IMG/VR virus record: IMGVR_UViG_3300024344_000079
Span: 1-30,654 of that record
Direction: 5' to 3' (one strand)
DNA length: 30,654 nucleotides
Source: a virus
The notes beneath the pieces were generated by a model. The model was not told the DNA's origin and did no database searches. It saw only the letters and a program-made list of their open reading frames with translations. The position numbers and the translations under genes were made by a program. Each line of letters begins with the position of its first letter. The stretch's first letter is position 1. Of this stretch, positions 12,079 to 18,028 are shown piece after piece.

Positions 12079-12552
12079 CTAAATCGTAGCAGTTTCCACT
12101 GATTCCACTGGTTCCTCCTGAATATCGTCTTCTTCCTCCTCTTGGAACCATTCACACTCAAGAAATATTTTAGATGCTCTTTCCTCTCCTAGAATTTCTA
12201 GGTTAGTAACTATATCGTGTTCCAATTCAGCGATAGATTTAATTACTTCTTCATCTTTAACTGACCTGACCTTAGACAAAACTTCCAAAGCTTTGATGGC
12301 GCTGTTGGTGTGACCATTATTCTTGGCATAGGTATATTGGTTTTCTATTTCAGAGATAACATCTATCTTTGTCTCTAATTCTTTTTCTAGTTCTTCTACT
12401 CTCTCCTTAATATCTTCTCTTTGTATAAGTCTGTGTCCTTGAGTATGGGCAGACACGGCAGAGTATCCTGCTGACTTAGCAGACTCCGTAGCATTACGAA
12501 GAACAACGTATGCCTGACAAAACTTCTCTTGTTTTAAATTTAATTCTGCCAT
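12079..12552 (-). CDS. terS: Terminase small subunit (Terminase_2-like)
   Basis: A 157-residue protein. Residues 3-50 (LNLKQEKFCQAYVVLRNATE, then SAKSAGYSAVSAHTQGHRLI) match the N-terminal helix-turn-helix of the Terminase_2 small-subunit family: 'L..KQ..F..Y......A..AA..AGYS..SA...G..LL'. The centre is helical for oligomerisation and the C-terminus is very acidic (EEEEDDIQEE). The protein should recognise phage DNA and recruit the large terminase for packaging. It is the last gene of the - strand arm, four bases after the lipoprotein gene. No large subunit is in the window. Split location from the large subunit and pairing with lysis genes is seen in T7-type phages. Confidence 0.8.
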   Translation of the reverse strand: MAELNLKQEKFCQAYVVLRNATESAKSAGYSAVSAHTQGHRLIQREDIKERVEELEKELETKIDVISEIENQYTYAKNNGHTNSAIKALEVLSKVRSVKDEEVIKSIAELEHDIVTNLEILGEERASKIFLECEWFQEEEEDDIQEEPVESVETATI

Positions 12553-12556
12553 CGTT

Positions 12557-12757
12557 CTATCCGCAAAATTTTTCCCACGCTACGTTATGTGTTAGTATCT
12601 GTCTTGCTGTTGTTTCACTAAGTTGATCTTGATTTGATATACTTATTGGCTTAGTCCAGCTACATTTAAGCGTCCCGCCGCCAACGCTTACGCAACCGCT
12701 TAATAACATCACCAGAAGAAAGCATGTTAATTTCGTTTTCAATTTTATTCCTTTCAT
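12557..12757 (-). CDS. Small lipoprotein, candidate outer-membrane spanin (Rz1-like)
   Basis: A 66-residue protein with a lysine-rich start, a hydrophobic signal and the lipobox LLSGC (Cys at residue 22), predicting cleavage by signal peptidase II and lipid attachment. The mature part is about 45 residues and contains the phage-typical stretch WTKPISISNQDQLSETTARQ with ILTHN before the end. Its first 92 bases overlap, in another frame, the end of the membrane protein gene 12666-12881. Overlapping frames with a lipoprotein second member are the hallmark of Rz/Rz1 pairs, in which the two proteins fuse inner and outer membranes at lysis. No proline-rich tract is seen, so the spanin call is moderate. 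Confidence 0.55.
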   Translation of the reverse strand: MKGIKLKTKLTCFLLVMLLSGCVSVGGGTLKCSWTKPISISNQDQLSETTARQILTHNVAWEKFCG

Positions 12758-12881
12758 TAACTTTATCTAAAGCATCTTCTAACCCAGCCTTCTTGGCAGC
12801 ATCACTGCCAGCTTTATAAGCAAAGATTAAAGGAAGAACTCTAGTAAAGAATCCAAATAGAGATGAGAAGAGGGATAGCAT
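12666..12881 (-). CDS. Small membrane protein, candidate inner-membrane spanin partner
   Basis: A 71-residue protein with an N-terminal hydrophobic segment (FSSLFGFFTRVLPLIFAYKA, residues 5-24). A charged helical domain with Lys/Glu/Asp heptads follows and ends in RLRKRWRRDA. It is shorter than typical Rz proteins (over 100 aa). It sits just after a holin-like gene and is overlapped by the lipoprotein gene, which supports a two-component spanin. An AAAGGAG ribosome site precedes the ATG by 6 bases (sequence CTCCTTTTAAAGG at 12890-12901 on the + strand). It could instead be an unrelated small lysis accessory protein. Confidence 0.5.
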   Translation of the reverse strand: MLSLFSSLFGFFTRVLPLIFAYKAGSDAAKKAGLEDALDKVNERNKIENEINMLSSGDVIKRLRKRWRRDA

Positions 12882-12949: not shown

Positions 12950-13135
12950 CTACTTGCCAGTTTGTTTCGCCTTTCCTACTGTTAGGCTCAAGAACTCAAG
13001 CACTTTATATATCTTACCCATAATAGAATCAGGTGCAGGAGTTTTAGTACCTGCAACCAATAGACTAGCAACAGTAACAATACCTGTCACAGTTGATAGG
13101 ATAAGTTCACTATTAGACATGACCATTTCTAGCAT
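12950..13135 (-). CDS. Holin-like small membrane protein
   Basis: A 61-residue protein. Residues about 9-29 (ELILSTVTGIVTVASLLVAG) form one membrane segment. It is followed by TKTPAPDSIMGKIYKVLEFL and a basic tail ending VGKAKQTGK. This arrangement, 'one helix - TPTP - GKIYK-L--L-L-VGKAK', recurs in small phage proteins next to lysis genes and is commonly labelled holin-like. Such proteins make holes in the inner membrane that release muralytic enzymes or trigger spanins. It starts 13 bases after the fusion gene and is followed by the spanin-like pair. Met-6 is an alternative start. Confidence 0.55.
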   Translation of the reverse strand: MLEMVMSNSELILSTVTGIVTVASLLVAGTKTPAPDSIMGKIYKVLEFLSLTVGKAKQTGK

Positions 13136-13148
13136 TTAGAATACTCCT

Positions 13149-15452
13149 TTATGCTGCTTCTTGTTCTAAGATTAAATCCAAGTAATGTAATCTATCGTTT
13201 TGCTTGGATTCTTTGTATACTTCGGAGACTAATGTGTTCTCTCCATAAATATTAATACTCATTTCTACTTCAGTATTATCAAATAGTCTTTCACAATCTT
13301 GTGCCATAGCCAAGAGTTCTCCTGTAGTCCAGAACTCAACCCCATTAGTTTCAACTCTCATATACTTGGGTCTTCCTTCTTGAACTGTTTCTTTTTTATC
13401 TTCCTCTGTAAGTTCTCTATCTAAACTACAATCAAAACCAAACAGATGGAAGTTACGAAAACCATAGATATGCATCATGCCTATGGATCGCATAGCAGCA
13501 CAAGTTCCTCCATTAACAAACACTGTCTTATCACTTATATTTAACTTCTCGTCTACCTCTACTTCTCCATTTGCCTGACCCTTAACTTGTTTTGCTACAG
13601 CCTGAGAGAAGGCGTGCCAACCATAGATGTTATTTGTTTTAGATTGGAGCAACTCAGTAACACTAGGATCAGTCATAGAAGCAATAAAGAATTTTGTTTT
13701 ATCATCGACAGTTTCAAACAAAGATGATCGTAATACACCGTGCGTACTTGTACCTGTTACTGGTCGAGGATCAAGTATAACACACGCCCACGGTTGTATG
13801 CAAGCCTTCAAAAGTTTAGGATAGCTATGCTTCACACAGATAATCCTGCCGTTCGTTTCTTTTTGAACTCTCTTTATTTCTTCGTAATCAGTAGAAGGTC
13901 CACCAGAAACAATGATAGCATGTTCTTCGTGGATAGCACATGATTTAACTATATCCCACTTAGAGATCAGGTCTACATTCTTATTAATATTATCCCAGAT
14001 ATATTCTTTAGGTACAGAATCCTTCGGCTGTACAATAATAGGCATCTTCTTTAAGTCTGTAGGTATGTCTGGTAGATCGTCATCATTAAGGAGAACAGCA
14101 AGATGAGTTCTACCACCACCCTTTACCCTGTCTTGTGATGGTAGTACAGTTATTCTTTTATCTGGCATGGACTCAATAAGTCTGTTGGTTCCTAAGTACT
14201 CATCGTCTAAGATGTTACCATTCTCATCCTTAGAAAAGAAATCATCGAAGACAATACAGGGTATATGCTTTAAGTTCTCGTAGTCTGATCGAACAGTTTC
14301 TTCACTGTGTCCACCATCAATGAAAGCAAATGAAGCCTTCTTTAGTTTCTTCTGTGCTTTCTTTAGAGTTACTTTAGAGTCTCCTCTGAATAGGTTAAAG
14401 GTAAATGTCTTACCTTCTTCCTTCATCTTTCTTTTGAAATCAGCCAATCGTTTTCGTACTGCCTTGGCTTTGTTGTGTGCCTTTGAATTTAGTTCTACTA
14501 AATCTAGTTCTTCTGTAGCTTCCTCAAACAAATCGAAGCCTATATATCTTACCTTATCGCTCTTCTCAAAAGCAGCCAATGACATTTCAATAGCACGACC
14601 ACCATTCCATGTACCTACCTCTACAATACAGTCAGTAGCATAAGCACGGACAAGCTCTGCTAACTGTCTATATCGGGGAAGACCAATGTCAGGAGCAACG
14701 GTGTCGTCAGACAACTCACTCTTTAGATTACCTTTGAAGTGTTTCATGTATTGAGATACAGGAGAATTAGCAAAAGCAGATAGACCTTTAACATCCGGTG
14801 TAAGGTTATGTACTTTCATACCGTGAGCAATATAAATCTTTAGAAGCCGCTCAAAGATAAAGCCATCATGCCATTCTCTGTATGACACAACCTCGCCAAT
14901 ATCATAGCATCCTCGCAGGTCTGCTAACATATAGTGAGGTGACTGATAATCAAGATTAAAGGCTACGAAAGAAGTCTCACTATAATCTACATCCTTACGT
15001 CCTAGATGCACAAGCTCTGCTTTCTCTGGTAGAAAGGCGAGAACTCTTTCTTCACTTAAAGGTTTGGTAGTTTCTGTATCAGCATCTAACCATATCAACC
15101 ATCCACCTTTAGCTTCCTTCTCACTTATCTCTAGAGAGAGATCAGTCATGGCATATACTTTATGGCACCATTTAATAGCATCCATACGCCAGCTATAATC
15201 TACCTTACCACCTTCCGTACCATCATGTATCTTCATATGCTCTCTAAAAGAGATCATATCTTCTACATCATTAAGGTTTCTATATTCAATTACCTTTGAT
15301 TGTGGAAACTCTGCTACCAATTCATCAGGACAATCGTGATAATAAGCTATAAGTTTTAGATCGTCTTTCCAAAACTTAGATACTGATTCCAGCATATTCT
15401 TGGCATAGCTAATATAGCCAGCCGCACTGAATGAAGTTACAAATCTGATCAT
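13149..15452 (-). CDS. Three-domain fusion: glycosyltransferase-like, SAM methyltransferase, DUF115/MptE-like
   Basis: A 767-residue protein from the ATG at 15452, three bases after the stop of the upstream glycosyltransferase gene. A longer frame from 15506 is possible but overlaps that gene. Residues about 1-230 look like a nucleotide-sugar transferase: IRFVTSFSAAGYISYAKNML at the start and a DxD site in GGWLIWLDADTETT. Residues about 265-430 form a class I methyltransferase: motif I VEVGTWNGG, acidic strand end YIGFDLFEE and FIDGGHSEETV. Residues about 510-690 resemble DUF115/MptE-like proteins: HAIIVSGGPSTDYEEIKRVQ and later FVNGGTCAAMRSIG and FHLFGFDCS. DUF115 occurs in motility-associated (Maf) flagellin glycosylation factors. 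I infer building or methylation of a glycan on virion or host surface. The substrate is unknown. Confidence 0.7.
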   Translation of the reverse strand: MIRFVTSFSAAGYISYAKNMLESVSKFWKDDLKLIAYYHDCPDELVAEFPQSKVIEYRNLNDVEDMISFREHMKIHDGTEGGKVDYSWRMDAIKWCHKVYAMTDLSLEISEKEAKGGWLIWLDADTETTKPLSEERVLAFLPEKAELVHLGRKDVDYSETSFVAFNLDYQSPHYMLADLRGCYDIGEVVSYREWHDGFIFERLLKIYIAHGMKVHNLTPDVKGLSAFANSPVSQYMKHFKGNLKSELSDDTVAPDIGLPRYRQLAELVRAYATDCIVEVGTWNGGRAIEMSLAAFEKSDKVRYIGFDLFEEATEELDLVELNSKAHNKAKAVRKRLADFKRKMKEEGKTFTFNLFRGDSKVTLKKAQKKLKKASFAFIDGGHSEETVRSDYENLKHIPCIVFDDFFSKDENGNILDDEYLGTNRLIESMPDKRITVLPSQDRVKGGGRTHLAVLLNDDDLPDIPTDLKKMPIIVQPKDSVPKEYIWDNINKNVDLISKWDIVKSCAIHEEHAIIVSGGPSTDYEEIKRVQKETNGRIICVKHSYPKLLKACIQPWACVILDPRPVTGTSTHGVLRSSLFETVDDKTKFFIASMTDPSVTELLQSKTNNIYGWHAFSQAVAKQVKGQANGEVEVDEKLNISDKTVFVNGGTCAAMRSIGMMHIYGFRNFHLFGFDCSLDRELTEEDKKETVQEGRPKYMRVETNGVEFWTTGELLAMAQDCERLFDNTEVEMSINIYGENTLVSEVYKESKQNDRLHYLDLILEQEAA

Positions 15453-15453
15453 T

Positions 15454-16209
15454 TTATTGTGCCATCTCCTCGTATAATTCTGTCCATTCTTTAGCGTACT
15501 GTTCATCTATTTTTCTTTTAGGTTCCCATGCTCTAAACAAGGGACCACCAGTAGTAAAGTGAACGCACTTAGGTTCAATATCAGGAGAAGAATGATCATC
15601 AAGCCAGTTCCATTCTTCGTCTATGCTTCCTATATCTTCACTGTCACACCAATGAAATCCATGTAGCCATGTACCTGATTTAATATTAACATCTGATATA
15701 GTTAGTTCTGTCTTTAGCCAAGGATGAGAACAGTTCCAGAACATAAAGCTAGACCAGTTCTTTCTTGGATATACCTGCTGTACTTTACCATCCATCTTTG
15801 TTTTATCTTTAGGATAATGCTCATGCTTAACACAACTAACTACGCTCTTAGTATTCTGGAAAGTATTGAAGACCTCTAAGATATCAGACCTAACAAACAT
15901 ATCACAGTCCATAAAGATAGCATGACCTTGATGTAGGTTAAGGAAAGGAACAAGGAACCTAGAGAAACTAAACTCAGTAGAGAATGGTTTCCTGTCAAAG
16001 ATATCTACTTGTTTACCATCATCAATTGTCTTACCTCTTCTGTAAAGACCAGACAATCTCACACTATCTTGAACCAAAGGAACAATGTTAACAGGACCAG
16101 AGGCATGTTTCTGTATACTATATTTTAAAACATTATAATAAGGTTCTTCTCTTTTATCAAATCCAATATAAACAGTAGGCATACGGGCGATATCATTATT
16201 ATTATTCAT
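15454..16209 (-). CDS. Glycosyltransferase (nucleotide-diphospho-sugar transferase fold, GT8-like)
   Basis: A 251-residue protein. After a short Asn-rich leader the sequence MPTVYIGFDKREEPYYNVLK opens a glycosyltransferase A fold. The metal-binding DxD appears in HAIFMDCDMFVRSD. Later features are FMFWNCSHPWL and the substrate-side stretch WLHGFHWCDSEDIGSIDEEW. No signal peptide or membrane segment is seen, so it acts in the cytoplasm. It is the first gene after the promoter at 16306-16334 and lies directly upstream of the fusion gene that carries another DxD domain. The pair probably acts on the same glycan. An AAGGAG site lies about 14 bases before ATG 16209, and the Met at residue 10 is an alternative start. 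Confidence 0.75.
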   Translation of the reverse strand: MNNNNDIARMPTVYIGFDKREEPYYNVLKYSIQKHASGPVNIVPLVQDSVRLSGLYRRGKTIDDGKQVDIFDRKPFSTEFSFSRFLVPFLNLHQGHAIFMDCDMFVRSDILEVFNTFQNTKSVVSCVKHEHYPKDKTKMDGKVQQVYPRKNWSSFMFWNCSHPWLKTELTISDVNIKSGTWLHGFHWCDSEDIGSIDEEWNWLDDHSSPDIEPKCVHFTTGGPLFRAWEPKRKIDEQYAKEWTELYEEMAQ

Positions 16210-16240: not shown

Positions 16241-16272
16241 GATAGAGGGCAGCACCCCAACCGCCCCCTATC
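16241..16272 (-). terminator. Leader hairpin / possible attenuator ahead of the glycosyltransferase gene
   Basis: GATAGAGGGC (16241-16250) and GCCCCCTATC (16263-16272) form a 10-bp stem with one mismatch and a 12-base loop. On the - strand the stem is followed by TTTCTTACGG. It lies downstream of the promoter and upstream of the ribosome site. It may partly terminate reductase read-through, attenuate the new transcript, or protect its 5' end. Confidence 0.45.
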
Positions 16273-16305: not shown

Positions 16306-16334
16306 ATCATACACTACTAATTAAGTAATGTCAA
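16306..16334 (-). promoter_or_regulatory. Sigma70-type promoter for the glycan/lysis/terS operon
   Basis: On the - strand, TTGACA (16334-16329), a 17-base spacer and TATGAT (16311-16306). The -35 is a perfect consensus and the -10 has one change. It lies 9 bases past the reductase stop, and predicted transcription starts near 16299, about 90 bases before the glycosyltransferase ATG. The wider string CTTGACAT and TAGTGTATGATTC is shared with the promoter at 20805-20833. Confidence 0.8.
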
Positions 16335-16342
16335 GCATTTAT

Positions 16343-18028
16343 TTACACACCACAACTTCCACCATGACCAGTGATATCACATATGTCATGTGTCTCTAGG
16401 CTTTCTTCAAACTCTTCACCTAACTTGGTCACTGCTTCCTCATAAGGTACACTGGTTAAAGGTTGACCACCTCTACAAGAATCAGGATAGACAGTGAAGC
16501 CTCTTAGCCTATGAGCATAGGACGCAAGAGTGTTAGCAAAGTCATCTACTGTATCAGGATTGTTAAGCTTGCTACCCCATGATGGTAGATTAATAGTAGA
16601 AGAGATGGACATATCTACATAGTCTTGAACGTCTGCCTGAAACTTCATGCGGCGTTTGTAGTCTTCAGCTAAGTCAAGTGCAGACTCAATCTTATCTGGA
16701 ACAGCACCATAAAGATCAATCAGTTCCTGTGCTGCACTATCTACAACGTACTGATAGTGCCAACGTGTACCACCTTTAAGATACCTACGCTTGTAAGCAA
16801 CAGCGAAAATAGGCTCAACGCCAGTAGATGTACCAGCAAGGATACCTATGCTTCCTGTAGGTGCAATAGCTCTGTTAGCTACTGGTCTACTAATACTCAG
16901 TGTATCAGCAGTCTCCTTGGATACCTTGTTACTTTCTCCTTCGTAAACTCCTAGCCACTTATGAAGTTCTTCTGTTACCTCATACTTAGCACCCTTCTTA
17001 ATTAGCCATTCATGCATACCCATCAAGCCAAGACCAAGACGCCTATTCTTTTCTCTGACAGAGTAGACTTTCTCATAAGGTAGCTTTGCTTTTAAAGTAC
17101 CACAGATAAGAAACTTTGTAGCCAAGCTGACGATATCTTTAAACTCACTAAGATCGTCAATCCTACCCAAGTTAATGCTGCCAAGATTGCATACATCCGA
17201 ATCTGTATCGCTGCAGACTTCGGTACAAGCGTTGCGTAGTGTTTCGTTTTCCTTGTCAAAGAAGTTGAAGCTGAACCCCGGTTCTGCGGTCGATAAAGCT
17301 TGCCGTACATTAGTCCTAAAGACATCTCCTACATCTCCTGTATTCCAGTAGTTAAGTAACCATTCAGTATCGTAGTTAACACTTACATTGGTCATGTCAA
17401 GAGGTGCAGGAAAATTAAAGTCCTGTTCTTTTATTTGACCTAGACTGTACTCTGTGTTTCCTACCTTCATATCATACCAGTTCTTACTGGACAGAAATGT
17501 GGGTATGTCTGGATGTTTCCAGTTTAAGCTGGCATAGATAGCTGACCTTCGGCTACCCCCTTGCATAACCCTTCGGCCAATTTCGTTCAACATCTGCATC
17601 TTAGGGATAGGACCAGAAGCAAGACCACCAGTACCAGAAAGAACTCTTCCCTCTTCTCTGTACACAGAATAGTCTGCACCAATACCACCGCCTGTCATCA
17701 GGCATGACTCTGCTTTCCAAGAAAGGTTAGCCCAATCTTCTCTGGTATCTTCCTCTGCTTTTAATAAGTAGCAATTATTAAAGAACTTGTTGGGTCTACC
17801 TGCATAATATAGATAGCGACCACCGGGAATAAATTTAAGATCAGTAATATATTCTTTGAGTTGATCCTGTTCGTCATTGGTTAGTTGTACACCACATACA
17901 TCATCTACTAAAGTTGATGCGAGGCTTGCCCATGTTTCACAACCTTGGTGAGCATACTTGTGTTTGAAAATATCTTCTGAAAATTTAGACCTGAACATGG
18001 GGTTTTCGTTAGATCGGAATGTAGGCAT
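16343..18028 (-). CDS. nrdJ: Class II (adenosylcobalamin-dependent) ribonucleotide reductase, compact form
   Basis: A 561-residue enzyme that would reduce ribonucleotides to deoxyribonucleotides using vitamin B12. The catalytic triad is in N266-A-C268-T-E270, a variant of the usual N-P-C-G-E loop. C86 (FFNNCYLL) and C280 (SDVCNLGS) form the active-site redox pair. C550 and C559 (CDITGHGGSC) at the extreme C-terminus are the swinging redox cysteines. FIPGGRYLYYAG, GGGIGADYS and GGSRRSA fit the family. No radical-generating small subunit gene or ATP-cone domain is seen nearby, which supports class II. It is shorter than the 739-aa monomeric Lactobacillus enzyme. It lies next to a DUF3310-like gene and in the same arm as ThyX, so it feeds phage DNA synthesis. 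The host must supply or salvage cobalamin. Confidence 0.9.
   Translation of the reverse strand: MPTFRSNENPMFRSKFSEDIFKHKYAHQGCETWASLASTLVDDVCGVQLTNDEQDQLKEYITDLKFIPGGRYLYYAGRPNKFFNNCYLLKAEEDTREDWANLSWKAESCLMTGGGIGADYSVYREEGRVLSGTGGLASGPIPKMQMLNEIGRRVMQGGSRRSAIYASLNWKHPDIPTFLSSKNWYDMKVGNTEYSLGQIKEQDFNFPAPLDMTNVSVNYDTEWLLNYWNTGDVGDVFRTNVRQALSTAEPGFSFNFFDKENETLRNACTEVCSDTDSDVCNLGSINLGRIDDLSEFKDIVSLATKFLICGTLKAKLPYEKVYSVREKNRRLGLGLMGMHEWLIKKGAKYEVTEELHKWLGVYEGESNKVSKETADTLSISRPVANRAIAPTGSIGILAGTSTGVEPIFAVAYKRRYLKGGTRWHYQYVVDSAAQELIDLYGAVPDKIESALDLAEDYKRRMKFQADVQDYVDMSISSTINLPSWGSKLNNPDTVDDFANTLASYAHRLRGFTVYPDSCRGGQPLTSVPYEEAVTKLGEEFEESLETHDICDITGHGGSCGV

Follow-up and report, generated by a model that had tools for sequence, protein, structure and literature searches.

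A virus-encoded protein that joins three transferase-type domains in a single chain was found in IMG/VR record IMGVR_UViG_3300024344_000079, of which we analyzed positions 1 to 30,654 (30,654 nucleotides; here, the window). Together with the separate glycosyltransferase encoded directly upstream, this fusion probably constitutes a soluble, cytosolic glycan-building pair that would carry out two glycosyltransferase steps, a DUF115 transfer and an O-methyl cap, a reading to which we assign a probability of roughly 0.6. The features of the locus are as follows.

16306..16334, minus strand: sigma-70-like promoter upstream of the operon, TTGACA-17-TATGAT, near-consensus
16241..16272, minus strand: 13-bp hairpin with a T-rich tail in the operon leader; a terminator-like, attenuator-like or leader element
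15454..16209, minus strand: separate DxD glycosyltransferase, 251 aa, first operon gene (phrog_28018, E = 1.6e-48; weak GT8 match)
13149..15452, minus strand: three-domain fusion gene (GT-A plus O-methyltransferase plus DUF115/Maf-like), 767 aa
14718..15452, minus strand: domain 1, predicted GT-A fold glycosyltransferase, aa 1-245 (predicted structure)
15078..15086, minus strand: DxD of domain 1, D123-A-D125 (sequence conservation)
14076..14690, minus strand: domain 2, predicted class I SAM O-methyltransferase, aa ~255-459 (PF13578 and fold)
13173..14033, minus strand: domain 3, DUF115/MptE-like, Maf_flag10 type, aa ~474-760 (PF01973 and model)
12950..13135, minus strand: small hydrophobic ORF, a possible (inferred) holin (phrog_9685, unknown function, E = 2.7e-4)
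12666..12881, minus strand: Rz-like spanin (phrog_1026, E = 1.1e-6)
12557..12757, minus strand: overlapping Rz-like spanin partner (phrog_1275, E = 4.6e-18)
12079..12552, minus strand: terminase small subunit, terS (PF03592, E = 2.1e-15; phrog_51)

The fusion ORF runs from an ATG at 15452 to a stop at 13149, exactly where the initial annotation had placed it. A mechanically called ORF would begin at 15506 and encode 785 aa; the start at 15452 was preferred because relatives share an MIRFVTSF start and the longer ORF would overlap the upstream gene. The ATG lies 1 base past the stop of the upstream glycosyltransferase gene, whose DxD motif is invariant (105/105), so the separate DxD glycosyltransferase reported directly before the fusion is indeed present. 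The fusion is confirmed to be real rather than a chance product, and it is intact across relatives, forming one unbroken ORF in every complete relative but one. In that exception (L002), decay was rejected as an explanation, given that the break lies in ambiguous sequence and resembles noise from assembly.

The third domain matched a known family. PF01973 (MptE-like/DUF115) matched aa 487-677 with an E value of 2.8e-13 (50.4 bits against a cutoff of 34.6), and the same match was obtained in 26/26 family members. When folded alone, the DUF115 domain was predicted with a pLDDT of 83 and a pTM of 0.83, and the top structural match of the resulting model was Maf (5mu5, residues 244-502; Z = 19.5, 3.2 Å over 229 residues), which bears out the relationship to Maf-type flagellin glycosylation that the initial annotation had drawn. 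The PseD flagellin modification model NF050051 was also matched in part by 26/26 members; the window protein aligned with it over aa 488-610 and scored 25.7 bits against a full-length cutoff of 670. In a profile search against the sequences of solved structures, the Maf match of the DUF115 domain was subthreshold but collinear. MptE (8sd5; the HPPK of M. jannaschii) came second, with a Z score of 15.8 over 194 residues, and the GT29/GT42 sialyltransferases ranked after both (Z = 8-9). Since PF01973 takes its name from MptE, an archaeal 6-hydroxymethylpterin diphosphokinase, and this enzyme shares both the family and the fold of the phage domain, we considered whether DUF115 might instead be a diphosphokinase that activates a small molecule. 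MptE differs, however, in being a single-domain enzyme with a different reaction, and it is structurally farther than Maf from the phage DUF115; the higher Maf score, the partial PseD match in all 26 members and the sialyltransferase matches, all of them comparisons of fold and profile, make the diphosphokinase explanation improbable.

Domain 1 reached no Pfam cutoff and matched no glycosyltransferase model (DUF1647, E = 0.028), yet its predicted structure resembled alpha-1,3-galactosyltransferase (Z = 13.8), the chlorovirus A064R glycosyltransferase domain (2p72; Z = 13.3) and glycogenin (Z = 13.1), with BoGT6a also among the matches at Z = 13-14. By predicted fold and DxD motif, domain 1 is a GT-A enzyme of GT6/GT8-like type. 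Its homologues in GenBank phages were confined to Pelagibacter phage Mosig and one environmental podovirus, at 26-27% identity.

Domain 2 matched Methyltransf_24 (PF13578) at aa 277-396 (E = 3.4e-8, 34.8 bits against a cutoff of 26.3). This match was found in 24/26 family members, the remaining two being without the domain. The motifs VEVGTWNGG, DGGH and FDD were recognized, and the fold matched MycF, CalS11 and COMT (Z = 13.8-14), of which MycF and CalS11 are sugar methyltransferases. Candidate acidic metal residues in the window protein are D379 and D403-D404, with N variants in 12/68 proteins; these may correspond to the metal-binding triad of TylF/MycF-type enzymes. The methyltransferase appears to be complete. 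Two relatives, L056 and L058, carry a fusion variant of 549 aa without the methyltransferase. In L230, the fused methyltransferase has decayed and an intact free-standing homologue is present on the same contig (746-1406 and 5729-7054), a single case that hints at supply of the methyltransferase activity in trans.

Whole-protein prediction with AlphaFold2, using 26 aligned relatives, gave a mean pLDDT of 77.8 and a pTM of 0.45. On these values, the single domains are credible, whereas their arrangement is not established. A profile search of the whole chain against the sequences of solved structures returned nothing useful, and the phage defense models gave no match. Pfam thus accounts for two of the three transferase-type domains that the initial annotation had placed in this gene and predicted folds for all three.

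We analyzed active-site conservation in 89 distinct proteins, comprising 69 full-length members of the window's wider clade and 20 more distant ones. Within the wider clade, the DxD and HxKG motifs of the GT-A domain and the DUF115 motifs VKHSY, LDPR, STH, GGT and TTGELLA were each kept in 69/69 proteins. Methyltransferase motif I (EVGTWNG) was kept in all window-clade proteins that have the domain, and FDD was changed to FNN in 12 of them. In contrast, the second Asp of DxD, the histidine of HxKG and the DGGH-plus-FDD pattern of the methyltransferase are gone from 16 of the 20 distant proteins. Loss of active-site residues, which the initial annotation had named as evidence against its reading, was therefore found for the GT-A and methyltransferase domains in the distant clade (16/89) and not in the window's clade. 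Since the DUF115 motifs persist in 89/89 proteins, this deep clade included, the constant part of the system is DUF115 plus the upstream glycosyltransferase. In the deep clade, the GT-A and methyltransferase domains may be structural or may work in some other way.

These patterns raise the question of whether DUF115, together with the upstream glycosyltransferase, is the only working part throughout, the other two domains having the scaffold role that the degenerate N-terminal domain seems to play in Maf. Both the retention of DUF115 motifs where GT-A and methyltransferase residues are lost and the absence of the methyltransferase from L056 and L058 are consistent with such a role. We nevertheless consider it unlikely, given that the GT-A motifs are invariant and the SAM motif is kept in the window's clade. 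Moreover, dN/dS between the window and L040 was lowest in the two domains in question (about 0.04, 0.04 and 0.11 for domains 1, 2 and 3, respectively). All pairwise dN/dS values that were computable, those for the deep clade included, were below 0.15 for each domain, indicating purifying selection.

Parts of this architecture have precedents. In Maf, a degenerate methyltransferase-like domain is followed by DUF115 (PMC11339370), and Clostridium acetobutylicum CA_C2196 is described as combining a methyltransferase with a Maf-type glycosyltransferase (PMC4000134). Maf enzymes attach nonulosonic acids to a protein by O-glycosylation; one of them can use Kdo as well (PMC11339370). Because Maf/PseD (PF01973; 5mu5) has the same DUF115 fold, immediately preceded by a methyltransferase-like Rossmann domain, the phage protein resembles a GT-A domain joined to a Maf-like core. 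When the full phage model (241-752) was compared with Maf (31-502), the Z score was 18.9 but the rmsd was 14.7, and the relative domain placement was not matched. The phage protein differs further in its extra N-terminal GT-A domain, its apparently complete methyltransferase and its lack of the C-terminal helical domain of Maf, the alignment stopping at residue 502 of 632 in Maf, near the phage C terminus. Unlike for Maf/PseD, no flagellin or nonulosonic acid genes were recognized beside the phage gene.

A closer parallel in logic is A064R of chlorovirus PBCV-1, a virus-encoded three-domain protein in which two glycosyltransferases and an O-methyltransferase build a capsid glycan (PMC9614988; PMC7826918). 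Its first domain resembles phage domain 1. A064R domain mutants alter capsid glycans, and the viral glycosyltransferase genes are expressed early (PMC9614988). The order in A064R is nevertheless glycosyltransferase-glycosyltransferase-methyltransferase, as opposed to glycosyltransferase-methyltransferase-DUF115 in the phage, and its second transferase is not a DUF115 domain. A064R also belongs to a eukaryotic virus and has proven activities and a proven capsid target. Among phages, Mosig (MT647606) has a gene homologous to the GT-A domain (26%) adjoining one homologous to the upstream glycosyltransferase (39%), next to two methyltransferase genes. In Mosig, however, these are separate genes in the opposite order, there is no DUF115 match, and the phage belongs to a different group. 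The structure search also matched a 714-aa protein of an uncultured Caudovirales phage, UniProt A0A6J7X5Q0, at 31% identity across 766 aligned columns; it probably has the same architecture as the window protein but is named "methyltransferase domain containing protein" with no function assigned. Our literature search returned nothing linking DUF115 or MptE-like enzymes with phage glycosylation. The literature found contains no description of the three-part order, which the initial annotation had not matched to any described phage enzyme, but its novelty is smaller than was suggested, with the Maf layout and A064R already known. The individual domains belong to known types, and a viral protein with comparable logic already exists.

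The genes that follow the fusion are those for lysis and packaging. The small hydrophobic ORF is syntenic in near relatives, and for most relatives with a contig extending that far, terS lies downstream of the fusion. In several relatives (L014 [2105-2614], L022-L025, L029 and L036), an HNH_3 endonuclease gene sits exactly between the glycosyltransferase and the fusion; we rejected it as a part of the glycan system and regard it as an inserted gene, presumably of the homing type. Where the strand of structural genes ends, the window encodes a HesB/IscA-like Fe-S biosynthesis protein (PF01521; 11494-11814, plus strand); in L048-L050, L232, L233 and L235, homologues lie close to the same module. 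On the other side of the operon, the ribonucleotide reductase at 16343-18028 is swapped for distant types (22-26% identity, some with a separate beta-subunit gene) in L006, L039, L030 and L122, relatives that are otherwise syntenic. A tRNA-Gly lies just upstream of the operon promoter in L039 (7106-7179), the only one of five relatives scanned to have it.

No nucleotide-sugar synthesis gene was recognized in the window. A hint of CMP-Kdo, and no more than that, comes from cyanophage S-SCSM2R, in which kdsB and kdsA lie near a gene homologous to that of the upstream glycosyltransferase. The neighboring unknown genes of S-SCSM2R and of Caulobacter phages yielded no DUF115 domain. A 2OG-Fe(II) oxygenase gene, often accompanied by an Hsp20 gene, precedes the glycosyltransferase in some relatives (L064:3893-4982, L006:6113-7228 and L094:4418-4981). 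In the window, the pair has no such oxygenase next to it; where present, the enzyme may take part in the same modification. Given that phage glycosyltransferases can act on DNA, its presence in several relatives could also be taken to mean that the pair adds sugars and methyl groups to modified bases of phage DNA. We consider this very improbable: no hydroxymethylase was recognized in the window, its thymidylate synthase is an ordinary ThyX, the oxygenase is not next to the pair there, and the methyltransferase fold is that of a small-molecule/sugar O-methyltransferase.

Only two sites with at least 11/12 matches to a sigma-70 promoter occur in the 30.6 kb, the operon promoter and one starting at 16160, just inside the first operon gene. 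A promoter-like site was present in 10/33 dereplicated upstream regions (5 of them perfect, 12/12), relative to a mean of 0.17 in dinucleotide shuffles. The leader hairpin that follows the promoter is kept in L003, L004, L040, L044 and L054, and in L004 it carries a double, compensatory C-G to T-A change, as read by eye. Between 16209 and 12079, no terminator was detected apart from one weak pattern match within the fusion gene. With the genes codirectional as well, the promoter shared with lysis genes and terS that the initial annotation had assumed is plausible, if no firmer than that. The late action derived from it is not supported: a near-consensus sigma-70 promoter of the operon's own suggests reading by host RNA polymerase and is silent on lateness.

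Such a promoter would also fit action before assembly, as expected if the pair altered lipopolysaccharide, capsule or a host surface protein and thereby blocked superinfection or virion readsorption. Pelagiphage glycosyltransferases have been classed under lipopolysaccharide modification (PMC9599517). On the other hand, no membrane-bound GtrA/GtrB-like partner or flippase was found among the scanned window genes above the smallest ORF sizes, and the DUF115 domain is closest to a protein-glycosylating enzyme, Maf. We therefore regard host-surface change as less likely than not, although it keeps appreciable weight.

In the glycan-building reading that we favor, the separate glycosyltransferase and the GT-A domain would each transfer one sugar from a nucleotide sugar. 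DUF115, as a Maf/sialyltransferase-type transferase, would most likely make the linkage to the acceptor or add an acidic sugar, and the methyltransferase domain would cap the chain by O-methylating one of its sugars. By analogy with A064R, the product would be a short O-methylated chain made in the cytosol; the reactions, donor sugars, step order and acceptor are all inferred. The most likely acceptor is a structural protein of the phage that would receive its glycan in the cytosol, for which we judge the chances to fall a little short of even; a host surface glycan or host protein is less likely but has appreciable weight. A more specific proposal, which we advance tentatively, is that of a phage-encoded single-chain line that O-glycosylates virion proteins in the cytosol, with a Maf-type and two GT-A enzymes building a methyl-capped chain as a core trait of the clade. 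The glycan-building reading is supported by the Pfam matches, the three structural matches, the conserved motifs, purifying selection and synteny, and additionally by the adjacent glycosyltransferases and methyltransferases of Mosig, the free-standing methyltransferase of L230 and the A064R and Maf precedents. Counted against it were the lack of a Pfam glycosyltransferase match for domain 1, the residue loss in the deep clade, the lack of a nucleotide-sugar synthesis gene and the pTM of 0.45. The compact glycan-building system proposed in the initial annotation is thus the best reading, while its suggestion that virions are disguised or receptors altered goes beyond what sequence can decide. 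If the reading is correct, phages would own a self-contained cytosolic glycosylation machine with chlorovirus-like logic and a partial relationship to flagellin glycosylation, and it would be a possible source of soluble multidomain glycan enzymes.

The fusion recurs constantly within a widespread clade of uncultured phages. A first scan of viral contigs identified 57 loci and a profile scan identified 217 relatives, of which 80 were kept, so the same order does recur in other phages. All DNA polymerase relatives whose contig reaches the place carry the glycosyltransferase and the fusion before terS; where the fusion is incomplete or missing, the contig stops short of it or within it. The fusion likewise adjoins the upstream glycosyltransferase in all relatives with sequence beyond that gene. 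Since the pair is present in all DNA polymerase relatives that reach it and the fusion in 8/8 long records (45-107 kb), we conclude that it is a core trait of the clade. Neither a full-length fusion in 50,697 GenBank phage records nor a match to a divergent DUF115 query in phage records (E values up to 1) was found. The family profile gave pattern matches and no confirmed relative in 84,980 bacterial and archaeal genomes, a scan that reaches fairly close relatives only and does not imply that the domain order is absent from bacteria.

The window's DNA polymerase is nearest to those of Pelagibacter phages HTVC103P/104P (about 48%), and the G+C content is 37-40%. In the 49 kb of HTVC103P that was seen, there is no annotated counterpart of the fusion. 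Metagenomic genomes related to HTVC103P phages, with no cultured member, have been termed "group IV" (PMC8528129), and by our own assignment the window's clade fits this group. From their Pelagibacter phage relatives, these phages are probably marine. Two of the longer records stand out in size. IMGVR_UViG_3300025168_000039 (the record of L177; 106,894 bases) contains two different fusion copies, at 44350 and 99463, ~55 kb apart, which suggests that two phage genomes are joined in one contig; the 100-kb L040 record is also longer than expected.
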